NCBI GenBank assembly: GCA_903231505.1
Contig: CAFBRK010000133.1
Span: forward strand, 62,001 to 126,000
DNA: 64,000 nt
DNA from: Olavius algarvensis associated proteobacterium Delta 3
Lineage (GTDB): Bacteria > Desulfobacterota > Desulfobacteria > Desulfobacterales > CAFBRK01
Reading direction: 5' to 3'
In this document: positions 29,415-56,413 of the stretch, one piece after another
How the letters are laid out: every line of letters starts with the position of its first letter
Position numbering within the stretch: the first letter of the stretch is position 1
The notes under the pieces: generated by a model
Databases searched by the model: none
What the model was told of the DNA's origin: nothing
What the model saw: only the letters and a program-made list of their open reading frames with translations
Position numbers and translations under genes: made by a program

Positions 29415-29706
29415 CCTTATTTCACTCCGATGGGTAGATTGCGTAACGATATCACCTTGGTAAAATCATCGGAATCGGTATCGGGTTCGGAATCGGTATC
29501 GACGATATAGCCGGCCATCCTGTTTCGATCCCGATTGCGATTCCGATCGCGATATCATGTCGTTATCTGGCTTTTTCGACGTAGATTTTCTCAACATAAT
29601 GATATCTGCTTTCAACATTTGACAGTTGCGACCGGTAGGGATACCACTATTGCGTACCGTCCGTTTCGAACTTGAACCTCTGCAACCTGTCCAGGAGGTG
29701 CATCGA

Positions 29707-30759
29707 ATGAAAAAAATAGCCCTGTCGTTGTGCATCCTGATTCTGATGGGTCTTCCCGCACTGGCGCAGGAGCCCACCAACCGCATCAGAATTGCTGTTA
29801 AAGAGTTCCCCCCCTTTGTTTTCAAAGACGGAAGGGGCTTTTGCATCGATATGGCAAAAGCGATCTGTGAGCGGAATGGATTGATACCGGAGTTCGTCTA
29901 TTATGGTTCAGTGCAGGAGGTCCTGAACGCGGTTGAAAGCGGTGAGTGCGATATCAACTTCTCGGGTCTCACTATTACCGCAGAAAGGGAAAAACGGGTT
30001 GATTTTTCGCATCCGTTTTTCGATTCGGGTCTGATCGTGGCGGTGAAAAAAGTTGCTGATACCCGAATCCACGATCTGGTCCTGAAGATTTTGAGAGTTA
30101 TTGGGTATTCCCTGGTGATATTTGCCATCGGCCTCACGGTGGTTGCCCATGCGATCTGGTTTCTTGAAAAAAGCGACAAAGACCCAAGAAGTTTTCCCAC
30201 CCGGTACAGCGAGGGCATTGTGGACGCTTATTGGTGGGCTATCGTTACCATGACCACCGTCGGATACGGCGATAAGTGCCCGAGGAAAATTATCGGCCGT
30301 TTGATCGCTTCTGTCTGGATGATTATCGGCATCGTCTGGTTCGCCGCATTCACGGCAACCCTGACCTCTTCATTGACGGTCAGTCAAATCGACCCCGGGG
30401 AGATCAAAGGACTCCAGGACCTCTCAGGGAAACAGGTGGCGGTGATCAAGGGGACGACCAGTGAAGACTTCATGCGTTACTATGATGTCACCGTCATGGG
30501 GACCGAGACCCTGGATGATTTGATTCGAAGTCTTCAATCCGGGGCCGCCGATGCCGTCGTGTATGATGCCCCGGCCTTGATGTATACGGCAAAAAGAGAC
30601 CCTTCGATCCAAGTGGTCGGTGAGATGTTCGACGAACAGAAATACGGTGTGGTGTTCCCCCAGCATATCCAGAGTCCCTACGAGGAAATTTTCGATTTGG
30701 GCATTCTCGAAATGAAAGGAAGCGGGGAATACCGGAAAATTTACAACAAGTGGTTTTGA
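29707..30759 (+). CDS. GluR0-like ligand-gated potassium channel subunit
   Basis: A 350-residue protein with the architecture of prokaryotic ionotropic glutamate receptors: signal peptide (1-21), first half of a periplasmic amino-acid-binding domain (about 25-120), helix M1 (about 130-152), a re-entrant pore with the potassium filter TTVGYGD (183-189), helix M2 (about 197-222), and the second half of the ligand domain (about 230-350). Arg94 in TAEREKR and Asp287 in VVYDAPAL are where agonist carboxylate and amino groups normally bind. AGGAGGTG sets the start. It should open a K+ path on binding an amino acid outside the membrane. Confidence 0.92.
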   Translation: MKKIALSLCILILMGLPALAQEPTNRIRIAVKEFPPFVFKDGRGFCIDMAKAICERNGLIPEFVYYGSVQEVLNAVESGECDINFSGLTITAEREKRVDFSHPFFDSGLIVAVKKVADTRIHDLVLKILRVIGYSLVIFAIGLTVVAHAIWFLEKSDKDPRSFPTRYSEGIVDAYWWAIVTMTTVGYGDKCPRKIIGRLIASVWMIIGIVWFAAFTATLTSSLTVSQIDPGEIKGLQDLSGKQVAVIKGTTSEDFMRYYDVTVMGTETLDDLIRSLQSGAADAVVYDAPALMYTAKRDPSIQVVGEMFDEQKYGVVFPQHIQSPYEEIFDLGILEMKGSGEYRKIYNKWF

Positions 30760-36194: not shown

Positions 36195-36521
36195 ATGCAA
36201 AAAACATGGTCCTACAAGAACTATGAAATCAAGGAAGGCTTGAAACCCGGGAGTGCGAAGTTCCGCTATTTTTTTTCCGTCGCAAAAGGCGATGAGAAAA
36301 AATGCCATTATTGCGTCTGGATAGCGAATGATGCCCTGTCCCGGTTTGATCCATCCAAAGATTTTAAGGCCATAATCTCTTCACAGTCGGAGACCTGGAG
36401 GGAGTGGGTCGAAGCCAAGATCGATGCCGAAGACTTCAGAAACCGGGCGTTGAAGATCGATGCCGCCGGCCAGGAGGAGATTAATCTTTCGGCGGCGAAA
36501 GAGCATGTGCCGTTGGATTGA
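36195..36521 (+). CDS. Small protein of unknown function
   Basis: A 108-residue, charged cytoplasmic protein with a CHYCVW pair and the ending AAKEHVPLD. A GGGGG stretch precedes the ATG. It is 77 bp before the second ADP-ribosylglycohydrolase and on the same strand. No domain recognised. Confidence 0.6.
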   Translation: MQKTWSYKNYEIKEGLKPGSAKFRYFFSVAKGDEKKCHYCVWIANDALSRFDPSKDFKAIISSQSETWREWVEAKIDAEDFRNRALKIDAAGQEEINLSAAKEHVPLD

Positions 36522-36598
36522 GCCGACCCGCTGATGCACCCGAGCAACGAATGCCTCTCACGGCATCCCTGCGCGAGAATGACCATAAGGAGCCTCGC

Positions 36599-37681
36599 AT
36601 GTCGAATGAGCATATACAAGACCGGGCCGCAGGCGCCATTATGGGCGCATTTATCGGCGATGCATTGGGGCTTGGTCCTCACTGGTATTACGACCTCGAC
36701 GAGCTTCGCCGGGATTACGGCGATTGGATCGACGAATATACCGATCCAAAGCCCGGTCGGTATCACAGTGGATTGAAGGCCGGCCAGCTCTCACAGGCCG
36801 GGTTTATTCTCACCCTCATGGTGCGATCTCTGGTTGATTGCGGCAAATACGACGCTGAAGACTTTTGCCGGCGCCTGGACGAAGAGCTTTTTCCGTTTCT
36901 GGACGGCAAGCCGTTCAGCGGGCCCGGCGGATATACCAGCCAATCGATACGCGATGCATGGCGTAAACGGGTGGAGCGGAAACTGCCGTGGGGCCAAATC
37001 GGCGGGCATGCGGACACCACCGAAGCCATCGAACGGACCCTTGCCATTGCCGTCCGTTACGCAATGAATCCTGCCAAGCTTGCGGTGGCTATTGCCGGCA
37101 ACACCGTTCTCACCCAGAGTGATGACACCATCGTTTCAATGACCGTGGCCTTTGGCGCGGCGCTGGGTCTCCTGGTGCAAGGGGAGCCTTTCGACAGAAA
37201 CCTGTCGGGAAAACTCATGGCGCTGGTAAAAAGCGGCGATCTCCCATTCCACGCCGTGACCCACGGAAATCTGGAGCCGCCCCGTCCCGGCGATCCCGAC
37301 CCGCCACGGGCAGGCCGATTTGCATCCCCGGACGCGTTGCTTACGCCGTCCTACATGGCTTCCGCAGCGGCTGACCCGGACATCCGGATAGAGCCGGCGT
37401 GGAAGGTATCTTTGGTCTATGGGATGCCCTGCGCCATTTACCACATGCTTCCGGCCGCTTATTACCTGGCGGCCCGCTTTCATGACAATTTCGAATCCGC
37501 CGTTCTCCATTCCGTGAACGGCGGCGGTCAAAATCAGGCGCGGACCATTATCACCGGCACGCTTGTTGGCGCTCAAACCGGATTGTCAGGGATTCCTCGC
37601 CGATTCATCGATGGGCTCGAATCGGGAGAACTCCTAAAGGCATTGGCCATGGAGCTGGCATTGCAGCTCACTGATCTGTGA
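36599..37681 (+). CDS. ADP-ribosylglycohydrolase family protein with degenerate metal site
   Basis: A 360-residue paralogue of the protein at 21935. The N-terminal motif FIGDALGLGPHWYYD is kept, but where the family has GGDTDT this protein has NGGGQNQARTI, with both aspartates gone. It may bind ADP-ribose-like ligands without the usual two-metal hydrolysis, or use a different chemistry. The start at 36599 follows AAGGAG; a TTG at 36518 overlaps the previous gene and is less likely. Confidence 0.8.
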   Translation: MSNEHIQDRAAGAIMGAFIGDALGLGPHWYYDLDELRRDYGDWIDEYTDPKPGRYHSGLKAGQLSQAGFILTLMVRSLVDCGKYDAEDFCRRLDEELFPFLDGKPFSGPGGYTSQSIRDAWRKRVERKLPWGQIGGHADTTEAIERTLAIAVRYAMNPAKLAVAIAGNTVLTQSDDTIVSMTVAFGAALGLLVQGEPFDRNLSGKLMALVKSGDLPFHAVTHGNLEPPRPGDPDPPRAGRFASPDALLTPSYMASAAADPDIRIEPAWKVSLVYGMPCAIYHMLPAAYYLAARFHDNFESAVLHSVNGGGQNQARTIITGTLVGAQTGLSGIPRRFIDGLESGELLKALAMELALQLTDL

Positions 37682-50003: not shown

Positions 50004-51089
50004 ATGAAAACTGAAATCGAAAATAAACAAAAAGAGCTGAAGGTAAAAACCTCCGGAAGTATGGCATCTCAAAAAAGATTGGCTAGGCAAAATGAATCGC
50101 CAAAGGTGTCTTTAAAAACAGTCAAAGATGAGAGAGGAAAAAGTAAATCGTCTGCGAATGATAAACCTTCGGTGAGGCGTGGTAAAAGGGCTCGAAAAAA
50201 AACCGATTCGAAAATCAAGCCCGATGCTTCTATCAAAAAATCGTCGAAAAAATCGAAGCATGTAAAAGTAAGTGAAAAAGAAAAAATTGTCGTGGAAGCC
50301 GTACAGAAATATTATTTTGCACAGGAATTAAAACCCTATCAAGCAGAGCTTATCAAGATGCAGCGTCATCTCGAAATGGTCGGGAAAAAGTTGGTCATCC
50401 TTTTCGATGGTCGGGATGCTTCCGGCAAAGGTGGAACGATTCGCCGGATTACCCGGTATATGAATGAAAAACGATATCGCGTCGTTGCCTTGGGTAAACC
50501 GAGTGATGACCAAAAAACGGAACTCCACATCAAAAGGTATATCGAGCAATTCCCGCATGCCGGGGAGATCGTCTTGTTTGACAGAAGCTGGTACAACCGG
50601 GCTTTGGTCGAACCGGTTATGGGGTTTTGCACCAAAGCTCAATATAAACGGTTTATGAAAAAGGTCATCACTTACGAACAAAACTTTCTTGAAGATGCCG
50701 GTAAAACGATACTCGTCAAACTCTATTTTTCGGTGACTAAAGAGGAGCAAAAACGGCGGTTTGATCGAAGGAAAAATGATCCGCTACGACAGTGGAAGCT
50801 TTCCGAAGTGGACTTGCAAGCCCAGGAACTGTGGGATGATTTTACCCAAAAAAAGTTTACGTTATTAAAAAAAACCCACACAAAAGCATCGCCATGGTGG
50901 GTGATTCGATCCGACAACAAGCATCTTGCCCGAAAAGAAACCATGAAACTGATTCTCAAATCAGTTCGCTACAAAGGTAGAAGCAGAAAACTCGATTTTA
51001 CTACGGATCCGAATATTGTTATCCCGGGAAACAAAGAGTTAAAGGAAATGAAAAAACAGCGGAAAAAATACGGCAGAATCATAACTTGA
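50004..51089 (+). CDS. ppk2: Polyphosphate kinase 2 with lysine-rich N-terminal extension
   Basis: A 361-residue protein. The catalytic PPK2 domain (about 95-350) has Walker A FDGRDASGKGGT (134-145), lid-region RYIEQFPHAGE and Walker B IVLFDRSWYNRALVEP. PPK2 enzymes move phosphate between polyphosphate and nucleotides (NDP or NMP). The first 90 residues are mainly Lys, Arg and Ser with no domain, an extension that standard PPK2s lack, and it resembles the polylysine gene upstream. A second ppk2 follows after 51 bp. Confidence 0.93.
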   Translation: MKTEIENKQKELKVKTSGSMASQKRLARQNESPKVSLKTVKDERGKSKSSANDKPSVRRGKRARKKTDSKIKPDASIKKSSKKSKHVKVSEKEKIVVEAVQKYYFAQELKPYQAELIKMQRHLEMVGKKLVILFDGRDASGKGGTIRRITRYMNEKRYRVVALGKPSDDQKTELHIKRYIEQFPHAGEIVLFDRSWYNRALVEPVMGFCTKAQYKRFMKKVITYEQNFLEDAGKTILVKLYFSVTKEEQKRRFDRRKNDPLRQWKLSEVDLQAQELWDDFTQKKFTLLKKTHTKASPWWVIRSDNKHLARKETMKLILKSVRYKGRSRKLDFTTDPNIVIPGNKELKEMKKQRKKYGRIIT

Positions 51090-51140
51090 TTTTAACACAT
51101 CACCCCAATTCAGTGTTGTTTATCGTAGAAAGGGGATAAC

Positions 51141-52142
51141 ATGGCCAAAAAAAGGAATAAAAAAAACAAAACGAAAGACAAAAAGGTCAAGTCAGGATCT
51201 GAAACCAGCGTTGCGGGAAAGATCGATGATTCTGACACGAAATTTAAAAAGAAAAACCAAAAAAAGGAAATAAAACTCAAGAAGAAATTATCCGAACACA
51301 CCAGCTTCAAAAATTTGGACAAGAAAAAATCAAAAACAAGGACAGCGGTCTGGGTCAAAAAATTTACCCTGGAATACGAGGAGGAACTCAACAAGCTGCA
51401 GATTGAGCTTTTAAAATGGCAAAAACATGTGATCGCAAAAGAAGATCGCGTCTTGCTGCTTTTTGAAGGACGGGATGCCGCCGGAAAGGGTGGCACGATC
51501 AAAAGGATTATCGAACACTTGAATCCACGGGGCGCACGGGTTGTCGCTCTCTTAAAACCCAGTGACAGGGAACGCACCCAGTGGTATTTTCAAAGGTATA
51601 TTCAACACCTTCCTTCCGGTGGTGAAATTGTTCTATTCGATCGCAGCTGGTACAACCGGGCAATGGTTGAACCAACAATGGGTTTCTGCACTGATGAAGA
51701 GAATAAGCGATTTTTAAAAGATACACCCATGCTGGAAGCGATGTTGGTCAAAAATGGCATTCTCCTATTCAAATTTTTCTTTTCTGTATCCAAAGAGGAA
51801 CAGATGAGGCGTTTTACAGCGAGAGAGACAAGCCCTTTGAAACAGTATAAAATATCTCCGGTTGACAGAGAGGCACAGGAAAGGTGGGATGACTACACAG
51901 TAAGAAAGTTTCAGATGCTCAACGAGACCAACCGAACCATTTCACCTTGGACAATCATCCGATCCGACAACAAGAAAAAGGCACGACTCAACTGTATCAA
52001 ACATATCCTTTCCAAAGTGAAGTATGAAAACAAAATTTCTGAAGAGCAACTTCGTGCCGACCCGGAAATCGTGGTATCGGGCATCGATGAAATCAGATTC
52101 ATGGAAGATCATTTAATGACGGGCGTCGAACTGCCCGGTTGA
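51141..52142 (+). CDS. ppk2: Polyphosphate kinase 2, second copy with lysine-rich N-terminus
   Basis: A 333-residue PPK2. Walker A FEGRDAAGKGGT (108-119) and Walker B IVLFDRSWYNRAMVEPTMG are intact, and the catalytic region continues to about 310. The N-terminal 68 residues are again Lys-rich (KKRNKKNKTKDKK), but are not a copy of the first tail. GAAAGGGG precedes the ATG. Two neighbouring PPK2s with different details may have different nucleotide or direction preferences. Confidence 0.93.
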   Translation: MAKKRNKKNKTKDKKVKSGSETSVAGKIDDSDTKFKKKNQKKEIKLKKKLSEHTSFKNLDKKKSKTRTAVWVKKFTLEYEEELNKLQIELLKWQKHVIAKEDRVLLLFEGRDAAGKGGTIKRIIEHLNPRGARVVALLKPSDRERTQWYFQRYIQHLPSGGEIVLFDRSWYNRAMVEPTMGFCTDEENKRFLKDTPMLEAMLVKNGILLFKFFFSVSKEEQMRRFTARETSPLKQYKISPVDREAQERWDDYTVRKFQMLNETNRTISPWTIIRSDNKKKARLNCIKHILSKVKYENKISEEQLRADPEIVVSGIDEIRFMEDHLMTGVELPG

Positions 52143-52210
52143 TTACGGTTATTCCGGGCGTTTTTTTCCCGCAACGACTCAATACGTTTTTAGTCGATAA
52201 GGAGGGACAA

Positions 52211-52504
52211 ATGAGCGTTCAGGTTATGATTAAACGCAAATGGAAAGTCGACAACCCGGAAATGCTCTTTCCACTTCTTGATCAGTTGCACTCACGCGCT
52301 AAAGAACAGCCAGGATATATTTCCGGAGAAACCCTGAGAAGCCTTGAAGATCCCGAAGATTATTTGGTGGTTAGTAAATGGGAAACGGCTGAAGATTGGA
52401 AGAAGTGGCAAACCAGCAAAGAAAGAAGAGATATTCAGGGTCAGGTGGATTCGCTGATCGGCGAAAAGACATTTTACGAAATCTACGAGAGTATCAAGCG
52501 ATAA
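52211..52504 (+). CDS. Antibiotic-biosynthesis-monooxygenase (ABM) domain protein
   Basis: A 97-residue protein with the ABM ferredoxin-like fold: QPGYISGETLRSLEDPEDYL, VVSKWETAEDWKKWQTS and FYEIYESIK. The ATG at 52211 follows AAGGAGGG; a longer frame from 52139 overlaps the ppk2 stop. The family includes small monooxygenases and haem-degrading enzymes; the role here is unknown. It is the last forward gene of the block. Confidence 0.82.
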   Translation: MSVQVMIKRKWKVDNPEMLFPLLDQLHSRAKEQPGYISGETLRSLEDPEDYLVVSKWETAEDWKKWQTSKERRDIQGQVDSLIGEKTFYEIYESIKR

Positions 52505-52589: not shown

Positions 52590-53165
52590 TCAGGAAATAA
52601 TCTCCTTTAGCATTTTGGAAAATGACTGAATTTCCTGAATCGCTATGTTATAGTTTTTCTTTTTCGGTTTTTTCCCCACTTTTTTTAAATTATACATAAG
52701 GACGTCCGCTTTTTTGATAATCGTTTTCTTGTCATCATCGGAGAGGTCTTCCCTAATCCGAACCAGTACACTGAGGCGCGTCTTAAGCTTGGTCAATCTC
52801 TTTTTAAAAATAACATACAATTCAAGATACTTTTTTTTCCACAACGGCTTGAAATTTTCATTCACTCGATTAAGTCTTTTCCGAAGCTTTTTTATCTTTT
52901 TCTTCAAATCCCGGTTGATCCTCTCGGGCTGTTCTTCTTTAACAGGTCTGATCGTTACCGATAATTCACCGTTTTTGACTCCATAATAGTCAGAAACAGA
53001 TTTTTTGATCCGCTTTGCATAATATTCGCCGATCGATTTAATTCCAGCCAGTTTATCCAATGGTATGTCATGAAGCTGAGTTATGGTCGTGATCCCGGAA
53101 TCGTTGAGTAATTTCATCCGGCTGGTTCCTACATGTTTCAATACAGTGAGATCATTTTGTTTCAT
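52590..53165 (-). CDS. Helix-hairpin-helix plus basic coiled-coil protein
   Basis: A 191-residue protein. Residues about 5-60 form a helix-hairpin-helix pair (HVGTSRMKLLNDSGITTITQ, KLAGIKSIGEYYAKRI), a DNA-binding motif. The rest is long, charged and predicted helical, with many lysines (KKKIKKLRKRLNRVNENFK). It could link DNA with another structure, such as a polyphosphate granule; that is inferred from position only. GAAGGAAA precedes the ATG. Confidence 0.7.
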   Translation of the reverse strand: MKQNDLTVLKHVGTSRMKLLNDSGITTITQLHDIPLDKLAGIKSIGEYYAKRIKKSVSDYYGVKNGELSVTIRPVKEEQPERINRDLKKKIKKLRKRLNRVNENFKPLWKKKYLELYVIFKKRLTKLKTRLSVLVRIREDLSDDDKKTIIKKADVLMYNLKKVGKKPKKKNYNIAIQEIQSFSKMLKEIIS

Positions 53166-53332: not shown

Positions 53333-53794
53333 TCACCACTTGCTGTAAGGGCGGTGAACCAGACTTGCGTTAAAATACTTGGGATCTCCAGTTACCTCAT
53401 CGCCTACCCAGTCCGGTTTGATATATACCTGGTCTTCACGTTCAAGCTCCAGCTCGGCGACGATCAATCCCCTGTTTTCGCCAAAAAACTCGTCAACTTC
53501 CCATACCAAACCCTTAAAATCGATGTTGTATCTTTTTTTTTCGATAAGCGGTTTTTCGCAGAGGTGGTTCAGCATGGCGTCAGCTTCTGCAATAGGGATT
53601 TCATACTCGTATTCAACACGGGCAGCGCCTTGGGAAATGCCTTTGACGGTTAAATAGGCTTTGTCGTGAATAACACGGACACGCACGTTTCGTTTTTCAT
53701 TGCTGTTCAGATAACCCTGACGATACAGCACTCCTTGCCCCTTGCGCCAATGATATCCCTTTACCAGGAACTTTCTTTCAATCTCCAGGGCCAT
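53333..53794 (-). CDS. CYTH-domain triphosphatase
   Basis: A 153-residue CYTH protein with the signature EIERKFLV at the start, RVRVIHDKAYLTVKG for the tunnel basic residues, and LVWEVDEFFGENRGLIVAELEL for the acidic, metal-binding side. CYTH proteins hydrolyse inorganic triphosphate or other triphosphates; a few are class IV adenylate cyclases. In this polyphosphate block, tripolyphosphatase activity is likely. Confidence 0.9.
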   Translation of the reverse strand: MALEIERKFLVKGYHWRKGQGVLYRQGYLNSNEKRNVRVRVIHDKAYLTVKGISQGAARVEYEYEIPIAEADAMLNHLCEKPLIEKKRYNIDFKGLVWEVDEFFGENRGLIVAELELEREDQVYIKPDWVGDEVTGDPKYFNASLVHRPYSKW

Positions 53795-53874: not shown

Positions 53875-54633
53875 TTAATGGAAAGCAGGCGAAAGTATCG
53901 TTTCACGGACTTTTGACCACAAGTTTTCATATGATTTGGAAGCCGCCGATTTAGGTGAAAACGCCACGACGGGCTGCCGCTCGATACCCATTCTTTCGAT
54001 CTGCGATAAATAAGGAATCAGGATTTGTAATGCGCCGTTAAACTCGTTTAGCACCAGTTCCATGAGGTCGCGGTGCAATGCTTTGCGCCCGTCGACCATC
54101 GAAAAAAAGGTGTAAATCTTACTTTCGTCATAGTTCATTTTTCTACAGAATGACAACAACTGCCGATGGGCATGAACTGAGAGCGTTGTGGGAACCAGCG
54201 GAACAAGGGTGTAGTCGACAGCGTTGAAAATATTTTCGGCCAGCATACTGATGGTTACCGGACAATCCAGAAGGATCACGTCGTATTCATTTTTCAACGG
54301 TTTTAATATTTTGCTCAAACGCTCCCTTGGATGTTTTAACTTATAAAAAGCGGCTTCCAGATTTCGATGAGCGAAATCGGCAGGCAGTAGATCAAGGTTC
54401 TCATAATCTGTGCCTTTGATGCTCTTTATCAGCTTTTTCCCACCTTTGATGAAACCCTTCGTCCCGGATTTCAGTTTGGGTTTCACACGATAGTAATAGG
54501 TCGCAGAACCCTGATGGTCGAGGTCGCAGATGAGAGTTTTAGCCCCGGTTTGGGCAGAGAGGTACGACAAGTTTACAGCTGCTGCGGTTTTACCCACGCC
54601 TCCTTTATTGCTGTAAAGAGCAAGCGTTGTCAT
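53875..54633 (-). CDS. ParA-family ATPase
   Basis: A 252-residue ATPase with the deviant Walker A YSNKGGVGKTAAAVNL, Walker B IIL-type VILLDCPVTISM and DLDHQGSATYYY. ParA proteins make nucleoid-bound gradients that place plasmids, chromosomes and protein cargoes. Its ATG overlaps the stop of the CHAD gene (ATGA), so the two are made together, and there is no ParB gene or parS-like array nearby. That suggests the CHAD protein or its bound granule as cargo rather than DNA. Confidence 0.9.
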   Translation of the reverse strand: MTTLALYSNKGGVGKTAAAVNLSYLSAQTGAKTLICDLDHQGSATYYYRVKPKLKSGTKGFIKGGKKLIKSIKGTDYENLDLLPADFAHRNLEAAFYKLKHPRERLSKILKPLKNEYDVILLDCPVTISMLAENIFNAVDYTLVPLVPTTLSVHAHRQLLSFCRKMNYDESKIYTFFSMVDGRKALHRDLMELVLNEFNGALQILIPYLSQIERMGIERQPVVAFSPKSAASKSYENLWSKVRETILSPAFH

Positions 54634-56192
54634 GAAACTTCCTTCGAATATTTTGGTGAGAATAGTTCTCCAAAGATACGCGTGGTGTCGGGTGATGCAA
54701 AGTTTTCGAAGGCTTGAGGCAGCGTATTCTTGAGCATCCGCTTTTCTGTATCGAGTGAGCCGATGAGAGCCCCGATTGCAACAACGGCTTTTTTATTTTT
54801 TTGATTGGTCGCGGGTAGTTTTTCGGATATGTGAAGCAGATATTGTTGCTGGACGCGAAGATCATTTATATTACCCAATTTATTCTGTAACTTTTTCAAC
54901 TGCTTTATCAAAACGTTAATTTTTTTACGCGGAAACAGACTGGAGAAAAACTCCATCAAGTATCGCAATTTCTTGCATTCGATTCTCAGCGCATGGAGTT
55001 TTTCATCATCGAGTGTCTCGAGTGCCCGGCTGCTGGCTTCGACGATGGAACCGTATTTCTTGTAGATTCTTTTCTGCGCCAGGGTCAATATGCGCAGATC
55101 GGCATTTGATGTCGTCGGGGCATCTTTCTGTGGCTCATTTAAAAATGATTCCCAATCATGTAGTATTTGCCTGTATTTTTCGGACTTAAAACTGCTGACA
55201 ACCTGTTTCAGCGCATTTAATCGCTTTTTGCGTAAATAGTTAAACAGAGGATCGATGTCATCCCGCAAAACAACGGGGAGGATCCCTTTATAAACCTCCT
55301 TTTTGAGGAGATAGACATCCAAATCACGCAACTGGTTGGAGAGTTTCCCCAAAAAGGAAAAATCTTTCTTGAATCGCGCTGTCGTCTCGTGGGGAAATAC
55401 CTTTTTGATCTGACCCAACGCCGAGCGGGTGCGGCGGATCGCGACACGGTAATCGTGCAAGAATTCCGTATCCACATCCTTTGCGATGTAGGCTCCGTTG
55501 ATCTTTATGACTTGCAGCAACGAACCTAGAATGATTCTGGCGGCGTCATCGGAGCGCATGTCCGGGATGAGCGTTAAATTTAATTTTGAGGAATAATCCC
55601 CCGGATTTTTATCCACGGACGCAAGTGCTTTAAAATAAATATCATCATTTTCACTTGCGAATAATCCGGCCTCTTTGAAACGTTTGGACAGGTTGCGAAA
55701 ATACTTCGGGTATCCCTTCACGGGTTGCAACAACACATAGGCGTCCAAGACCGGTGATTCTTTTTCGCGGGTCGAACGAATCTCATTGAACACAAATCTG
55801 GCCACTGTTTTCTCGTCCTGATTCAAGATACGGTGAGCCCTTGACCGGGAATGTACATCCACAAGCCTGAAGAGTGCCCGCATTTTCAGAATCGGTGCCA
55901 AAAACTCCTGTATCTCACCTTTCGGGAAATCCTGAAGGAGGACCGGTGGACGCTTGATTTCAAAACCGTGCATAATTTCGTTTGAAAATAGCTTTCGCAC
56001 AAAAAATCTGTTTCCACAGGCGTATAAAACAAGAGATTTGTTAAACAGGCGCCAGTCAAACGTATCGTATATGGCCATACGATTCAGTTCGGGCCGATCT
56101 GATTCAATTGCATAGGTTTTCATCAATTCGGAAATAAACTGACGTTGATCAAACCCGGCAGGAAGATTGTGTTTTATCTGAACGTGCATCAT
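54630..56192 (-). CDS. CYTH-like plus CHAD-domain polyphosphate-associated protein
   Basis: A protein of about 520 residues. The N-terminal part (about 1-200) is a divergent CYTH domain (YDTFDWRLFNKSLVLYACGN, FEIKRPP), probably without the full set of catalytic residues. The C-terminal part (about 215-505) is a CHAD domain with the helices FLHDYRVAIRRTRSALGQ, LHALRIECKKLRYLMEFF and KLQNKLGNINDL. CHAD domains bind polyphosphate and localise to its granules. I chose the ATG at 56192 (GAGG site); the frame runs upstream to 56219. It is coupled to the ParA gene by ATGA. Confidence 0.9.
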   Translation of the reverse strand: MMHVQIKHNLPAGFDQRQFISELMKTYAIESDRPELNRMAIYDTFDWRLFNKSLVLYACGNRFFVRKLFSNEIMHGFEIKRPPVLLQDFPKGEIQEFLAPILKMRALFRLVDVHSRSRAHRILNQDEKTVARFVFNEIRSTREKESPVLDAYVLLQPVKGYPKYFRNLSKRFKEAGLFASENDDIYFKALASVDKNPGDYSSKLNLTLIPDMRSDDAARIILGSLLQVIKINGAYIAKDVDTEFLHDYRVAIRRTRSALGQIKKVFPHETTARFKKDFSFLGKLSNQLRDLDVYLLKKEVYKGILPVVLRDDIDPLFNYLRKKRLNALKQVVSSFKSEKYRQILHDWESFLNEPQKDAPTTSNADLRILTLAQKRIYKKYGSIVEASSRALETLDDEKLHALRIECKKLRYLMEFFSSLFPRKKINVLIKQLKKLQNKLGNINDLRVQQQYLLHISEKLPATNQKNKKAVVAIGALIGSLDTEKRMLKNTLPQAFENFASPDTTRIFGELFSPKYSKEVS

Positions 56193-56413
56193 CGTGGCCT
56201 CGAGGAGCGCAGCAGGCATTCAAAGGTTGGGCGGTTAACCGGACAAATTTCCCAAATGGATTTTTTCAAAACGGGGCAGGTTTTATGATTGACTGTTTTG
56301 CTGGCCTTAACAGATTGCGAACTTTTGTACCCTGAACCTGTGCATTGCTGGTCGATTATAAAACGGCACCTCCACCTGTTTTGTGGCGTTAAAGACGTGT
56401 CCAGTGAGTGATG

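Follow-up and report, generated by a model that had tools for sequence, protein, structure and literature searches.

The 64-kb window (the whole stretch of DNA analysed here) contains a block of polyphosphate (polyP) genes in which the gene for a ParA-family ATPase directly follows that for a CHAD protein. Gene names in the block (AAA_31, CHAD, CYTH, SixA-like histidine phosphatase, two PPK2 and ABM) were assigned with Pfam and NCBIfam, the ParA frame matching AAA_31/ParA at 5e-33 and the CHAD frame matching CHAD at 1.5e-50 (Pfam).

50004-51089, + strand: PPK2 polyphosphate kinase with a Lys-rich N-terminal tail
51141-52142, + strand: second PPK2, of the P. aeruginosa PPK2 type, with a Lys-rich N-terminal tail
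52139-52504, + strand: antibiotic biosynthesis monooxygenase (ABM) domain protein, adjoining PPK2 in relatives too
52590-53165, - strand: helix-hairpin-helix (HhH)-like Lys/Arg-rich protein (49 K/R of 191 residues), kept in some relatives; HhH assigned by eye
53333-53794, - strand: stand-alone CYTH (triphosphate tunnel) protein with an EIERK motif, conserved in the cluster
53875-54633, - strand: ParA-family ATPase, 252 aa, with deviant Walker A KGGVGKT and a Lys-rich loop (residues 48-76); belongs to the CHAD-linked ParA family
54630-54633, - strand: ATGA stop/start overlap of CHAD and ParA, the same in 45 of 92 homologous pairs
54630-56192, - strand: CHAD protein of the phosin type, with an N-terminal TTM/CYTH-like fold lacking ExExK and a C-terminal CHAD carrying six mapped polyP-binding residues
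56414-56974, - strand: SixA-like histidine phosphatase, conserved in the cluster

GC content is 0.41-0.46 across ~49-57 kb of the window and mostly 0.5-0.6 outside, and this AT-richness relative to the flanks suggests that the polyP block was acquired as one unit. Genome-wide, PPK1 is absent and three PPK2 are present; because the genome lacks PPK1, even the presence of polyP granules in this organism is an assumption. Elsewhere in the window lie an ion channel with a split solute-binding domain (29626-30756), a glutamate-receptor-like architecture in a bacterium, and an ADP-ribosylglycohydrolase family protein (36518-37678).

A CHAD-ParA gene pair conserved across phyla

The overlap between the two genes, pointed out in an earlier sequence-only reading of this DNA, is confirmed at bases 54630-54633, where ATGA on the - strand is common to the CHAD stop and the ParA start. 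The longest CHAD frame spans 54630-56219 (- strand, 529 aa), but a start at 56192 (or 56189) is more likely than one at 56219, because most homologues begin there, the model shows no structure for residues 1-12 and GAGG lies just upstream; the start chosen in that reading, 56192, is thus the better fit. Since ParA has its own Shine-Dalgarno-like AAGGAAG inside the CHAD 3' end, translational coupling from CHAD to ParA is predicted as likely. Among 92 CHAD-ParA pairs, 45 share the exact ATGA overlap, including family members only 46-50% identical to the window ParA, and 87 have a spacing within -20 to 60 nt. The overlap behind the coupling that the sequence-only reading proposed to look for in other genomes recurs in those 45 pairs; natural ParA-CHAD fusions, which it also proposed to look for, were not seen among the loci examined. 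Long open frames at three loci (L050, L054 and L166) were rejected as fusions, being overlapping frames.

When family members are graded by match score (E<=1e-90, 1e-70 to 1e-90, and weaker), CHAD immediately precedes ParA in 90 of the 93 closest members with upstream DNA; this top grade comprises 90 loci with CHAD, 3 without and 2 at contig edges. The intermediate grade has 2 with CHAD versus 13 without, and the weaker grade none with CHAD. CHAD linkage thus fades in more distant members of the ParA family. A contig scan with the ParA query returned 34 loci, 32 of them true family, with CHAD directly upstream in all but one at a contig edge (L028). Within the window's phylum, 22 of 395 genomes carry the family (23 copies), and CHAD immediately precedes 19 of the 22 copies whose upstream DNA is available; the three others are among those with weaker scores. 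In the class Gammaproteobacteria (369 genomes, centred on a Chromatiales genome), 57 genomes carry the family and 43 of the 58 loci fetched are CHAD-linked. Carriers of the pair span Thermodesulfobacteriota, Alpha- and Gammaproteobacteria, and records that carry the labels Chloroflexota, Poribacteria, KSB1 and SAR324. The taxonomy given for metagenome-assembled genomes can be mistaken, but the Paracoccus plasmids are from strains in culture.

An IQ-TREE phylogeny of 122 ParAs separates 116 from the rest by a long branch (length 2.06, support 100/98) and sets the CHAD-linked family apart from the other ParAs of the window's genome. On this tree the CHAD label changes 7 times versus 27 in shuffles, and 0 of 500 shuffles reach so low a number. 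The CHAD-ParA adjacency is not due to chance, and the pairing is an ancient unit conserved across phyla.

The setting of the pair varies around this core. Paracoccus plasmids of three species carry a CHAD-ParA-CYTH-NUDIX cassette, and the P. marcusii copy adjoins pstB-phoU-phoB. A small hypothetical gene (62-67 aa) lies directly before CHAD in the plasmid cassettes L099, L101 and L105. ParA-linked CHADs at five loci (L170, L175, L177, L180 and L186) are short and have no TTM domain. ParA can be dispensable in some CHAD clusters, because otherwise similar clusters (L079, L080 and L083) hold a CHAD with no neighbouring ParA. In a divergent family branch (L188, L189 and L190), ParA stands directly behind an NtrC-like sigma-54 activator; in divergent branches beside other genes, the cargo or partner may have changed. 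A CHAD-less member on the Marinobacter nauticus VT8 plasmid pMAQU02 (L102) adjoins a pyruvate kinase-like gene and lies near the acetoacetyl-CoA reductase gene phbB; a PHB-related cargo is conceivable for this ParA.

PolyP genes recur around the pair. PPK1 comes just before CHAD in L004, L008, L022, L024 and L026 and is separated from it by CYTH in L086, and the order PPK1-CHAD-ParA is found in several lineages; other loci have SixA, CYTH or PPK2 near the pair. In L182, which has no CHAD, ParA starts 11 nt after PPK1. Thirty-six CHAD-linked loci have no PPK1, PPK2, SixA or CYTH in the flanks examined, which are partly short stretches. Among the phylum genomes with a CHAD-linked copy, PPK1 or PPK2 is present in 17 of 18 (in the exception, G176, neither kinase was found), and a relative with a divergent ParA and no CHAD (G036) has neither PPK1 nor PPK2.

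ParA and CHAD proteins and the absence of a nearby ParB

The Walker residues K10, K15, D37, D39 and D123 are invariant in 116 of 116 family members; with the deviant Walker A motif, its signature lysine and the Walker A'/B aspartates present, the full set of ATPase-cycle residues is intact as judged from the alignment. The ParA model (pLDDT 83, pTM 0.85) has a ParA fold, matching Soj/ParA best (TM ~0.8); McdA (6non/6nop) and FleN are also matched, the latter more weakly than Soj/ParA. In Caulobacter ParA, DNA is contacted by R195, R221 and R224 (PMC7229837). Mapped onto the family through 8ray and HpSoj, the R195 counterpart is kept in 104 of 116 members, while those of R221 and R224 are lost (Tyr and mostly acidic or neutral residues) and basic residues are gained at R/K214 and R219. 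CHAD-linked ParAs are basic, with a mean net charge of about +9, compared with -6 for the ParA of the genome's own ParAB. They also carry the Lys-rich loop 48-76, of which residues 54-65 are poorly ordered in the model.

Within this loop, R49 and K73 are basic in 97-98% of CHAD-linked members versus 14-43% of others, with too few independent pairs for a statistical test; their use as an independent mark of CHAD linkage was dropped for that reason. As a pointer to polyP binding the signature is only suggestive. We consider it quite doubtful that the basic loop binds polyP, that polyP competes with DNA for binding to ParA and that the granule is thereby part of its own ATPase-activating partner; if so, an inorganic polymer would drive the partitioning.

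In CtCHAD, mutation of H253, R256, R260, R296, R418 or Y419 weakens polyP binding (PMC6537752). All six counterparts in the window protein (H255, R258, R262, R298, R419 and Y420) are invariant in 30 aligned CHAD proteins, and its C-terminal CHAD part superimposes on CtCHAD 6qv7 with a TM of 0.94. The N-terminal part folds as a triphosphate tunnel and matches ygiF and several TTM structures. ExExK is absent from this TTM domain and present in the separate CYTH gene; the domain likewise lacks the motif in 26 of 29 proteins, the remaining three motif matches not being N-terminal. Because it has no ExExK motif, the TTM domain is probably not an enzyme. The window protein therefore shares with the CHAD phosins (PF05235; CtCHAD 6qv7/6qva, ygiF) the CHAD fold and polyP-binding residues and, with ygiF, the TTM-CHAD architecture, but differs in that window-type TTM domains mostly lack ExExK and ParA is a fixed partner. 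A ParB-like basic N-terminal peptide is not evident in the CHAD proteins, and a C-terminal F..LF motif was dropped as a candidate ParA-binding tail, since CtCHAD and CHADs that lack a ParA have it too and the tails are variable.

With Soj/ParA proteins as its best solved relatives, the window ParA could be an ordinary plasmid or chromosome partition protein that lies next to CHAD by accident. We consider this very improbable, given that the CHAD linkage and overlap are conserved across phyla, that no ParB is found near family members in the flanking DNA examined (ParB occurs only beside the canonical ParAs L037 and L034) and that the genome has its own ParAB. The 64-kb window contains no ParB_N domain, the genome's two matches lying on other contigs, no parS at <=3 mismatches and, in a repeat search, only repeats of chance size, which bears out the earlier observation that neither parB nor a parS-like repeat is nearby. 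That reading had allowed for a partner ParB encoded elsewhere; the genome's ParB pairs with a different ParA, which it adjoins on contig C308. A plasmid-partition reading was also rejected: none of the best plasmid-borne family matches reaches 50% identity to the window ParA, and those from Paracoccus belong to the same CHAD cassette. The proposed non-DNA cargo is supported by the lack of ParB and parS together with the separate ParAB elsewhere in the genome. Chromosomal Soj/ParA of ParABS systems are the nearest solved relatives by sequence and fold and share the Walker motifs, but the window family lacks ParB/parS, has its R221/R224-type contacts replaced and is basic rather than acidic.

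A candidate partition module for polyP granules

ParA-type motor ATPases spread chromosomes and plasmids evenly in cells. With a conserved and overlapping gene pair, intact ATPase and polyP-binding residues, polyP genes as neighbours and neither ParB nor parS, we think it probable that CHAD and ParA form a two-protein module that spaces and partitions polyP granules, much as McdA/McdB does for carboxysomes. The mechanism is modelled on the ParA/McdA cycle (PMC13052382), and for it we infer contact between ParA and CHAD, DNA binding, ATPase stimulation and granule motion. CHAD, a domain already known to bind polyP, would coat the granule, and ParA-ATP would dimerise and coat the nucleoid by non-specific binding. 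Granule-borne CHAD, encoded as a dedicated partner beside ParA (by gene adjacency, in the 90 of 93 closest members), would then contact ParA, probably docking through its presumably inactive TTM domain, and trigger the hydrolysis of ATP. Hydrolysis would clear ParA locally, letting granules drift up the ParA gradient until they are evenly spaced and can be shared at division. Several observations weigh against the module: the counterparts of two Caulobacter DNA-contact arginines are gone, CHAD shows no evident ParB-like basic peptide, some similar clusters keep CHAD but not ParA, a few ParA-linked CHADs have no TTM domain, PPK1 is absent from this genome, and G176 yielded neither kinase.

The likeness to McdA/McdB lies in a ParA-type ATPase beside a cargo-binding partner, the lack of ParB/parS, a cytoplasmic body as cargo and the fold match to 6non/6nop; it differs in that the partner is a CHAD polyP-binding protein, unlike McdB, and the cargo would be polyP. 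Carboxysome genes are not among the neighbours examined, which are polyP genes. The analogy to McdA drawn from the sequence alone thus stands at the level of mechanism but not of kinship, the window ParA being no closer to McdA than to Soj/ParA in sequence or fold. The accompanying step from CHAD to polyP granules as cargo is strengthened in so far as the two genes form a functional pair across phyla in a polyP setting (PPK1/PPK2, SixA, CYTH).

FleN/MinD-like ATPases act as switches with regulators. The same gene neighbourhood would also suit a ParA that serves as a nucleotide switch on polyP metabolism, binding CHAD, PPK or a regulator to set kinase/phosphatase activity or transcription and moving nothing, and both the fold match to FleN and the sigma-54 activator upstream in the divergent branch (L188-L190) are consistent with this. 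We regard such a switch as unlikely, though worth weighing, because the steadiest partner is a granule-binding scaffold and not a regulator, and Soj/ParA fit the fold better than FleN.

A further alternative is that ParA helps to build, tether or fuse polyP condensates, and so sets how large and how many they are but transports nothing actively; the HhH protein and the Lys-rich PPK2 tails would join it as nucleoid tethers, in the manner of AlgP. In Pseudomonas aeruginosa, AlgP helps the even spacing of polyP granules on the nucleoid, with no ATPase involved so far; it is a histone H1-like DNA-binding protein and, unlike ParA, no ATPase, and neither ParA nor McdA is mentioned in the paper that describes it (PMC9239181). 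Lys/Arg make up 33 of 104 and 29 of 77 residues in the N-terminal tails of the two PPK2 (50004-52142, + strand), ahead of the kinase domain, and these tails possibly bind polyP or the nucleoid. The HhH-like Lys-rich protein is a possible passive tether, since Caulobacter PhaH tethers PHB granules via an HhH domain (PMC13052382), and the basic loop in ParA would also agree with tethering. This alternative is nonetheless quite improbable in our view, as the HhH protein is found only among close relatives of the window and the ATPase-cycle residues are complete in all 116 members.

In Acidithiobacillus, a folD-ppk-parA-CHAD cluster has been reported in which parA, ppk and CHAD form a conserved group, resembling the present loci by gene content, but its ParA was read as a plasmid/chromosome partitioning protein with no link to granules (PMC10892726, PMC6416229). 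A 2025 review gives only AlgP as a polyP granule spacing protein, names no ATPase for these granules and states that the need for energy remains to be seen (PMC13052382), and a survey of ParA/MinD cargoes, in which members are tied to cargoes by gene neighbourhood, lists many without a known partner (PMC10241942). In the literature searched, with subscription papers and preprints largely outside its scope, no ParA is described as acting on polyP granules. Because the Acidithiobacillus parA is called partitioning, AlgP is the sole reviewed polyP spacer and many ParA/MinD proteins have no known partner, we regard the pair as a candidate for cargo positioning by a ParA in which the type of partner, CHAD, is new and the cargo is probably new as well.

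With a widespread ParA-CHAD pair, the placement of polyP granules has a specific candidate ATPase and a specific candidate partner, which makes the question testable. If the proposed module is correct, polyP would join the cargoes of the ParA/MinD family, and one group of ParB-less ParAs would gain a function.
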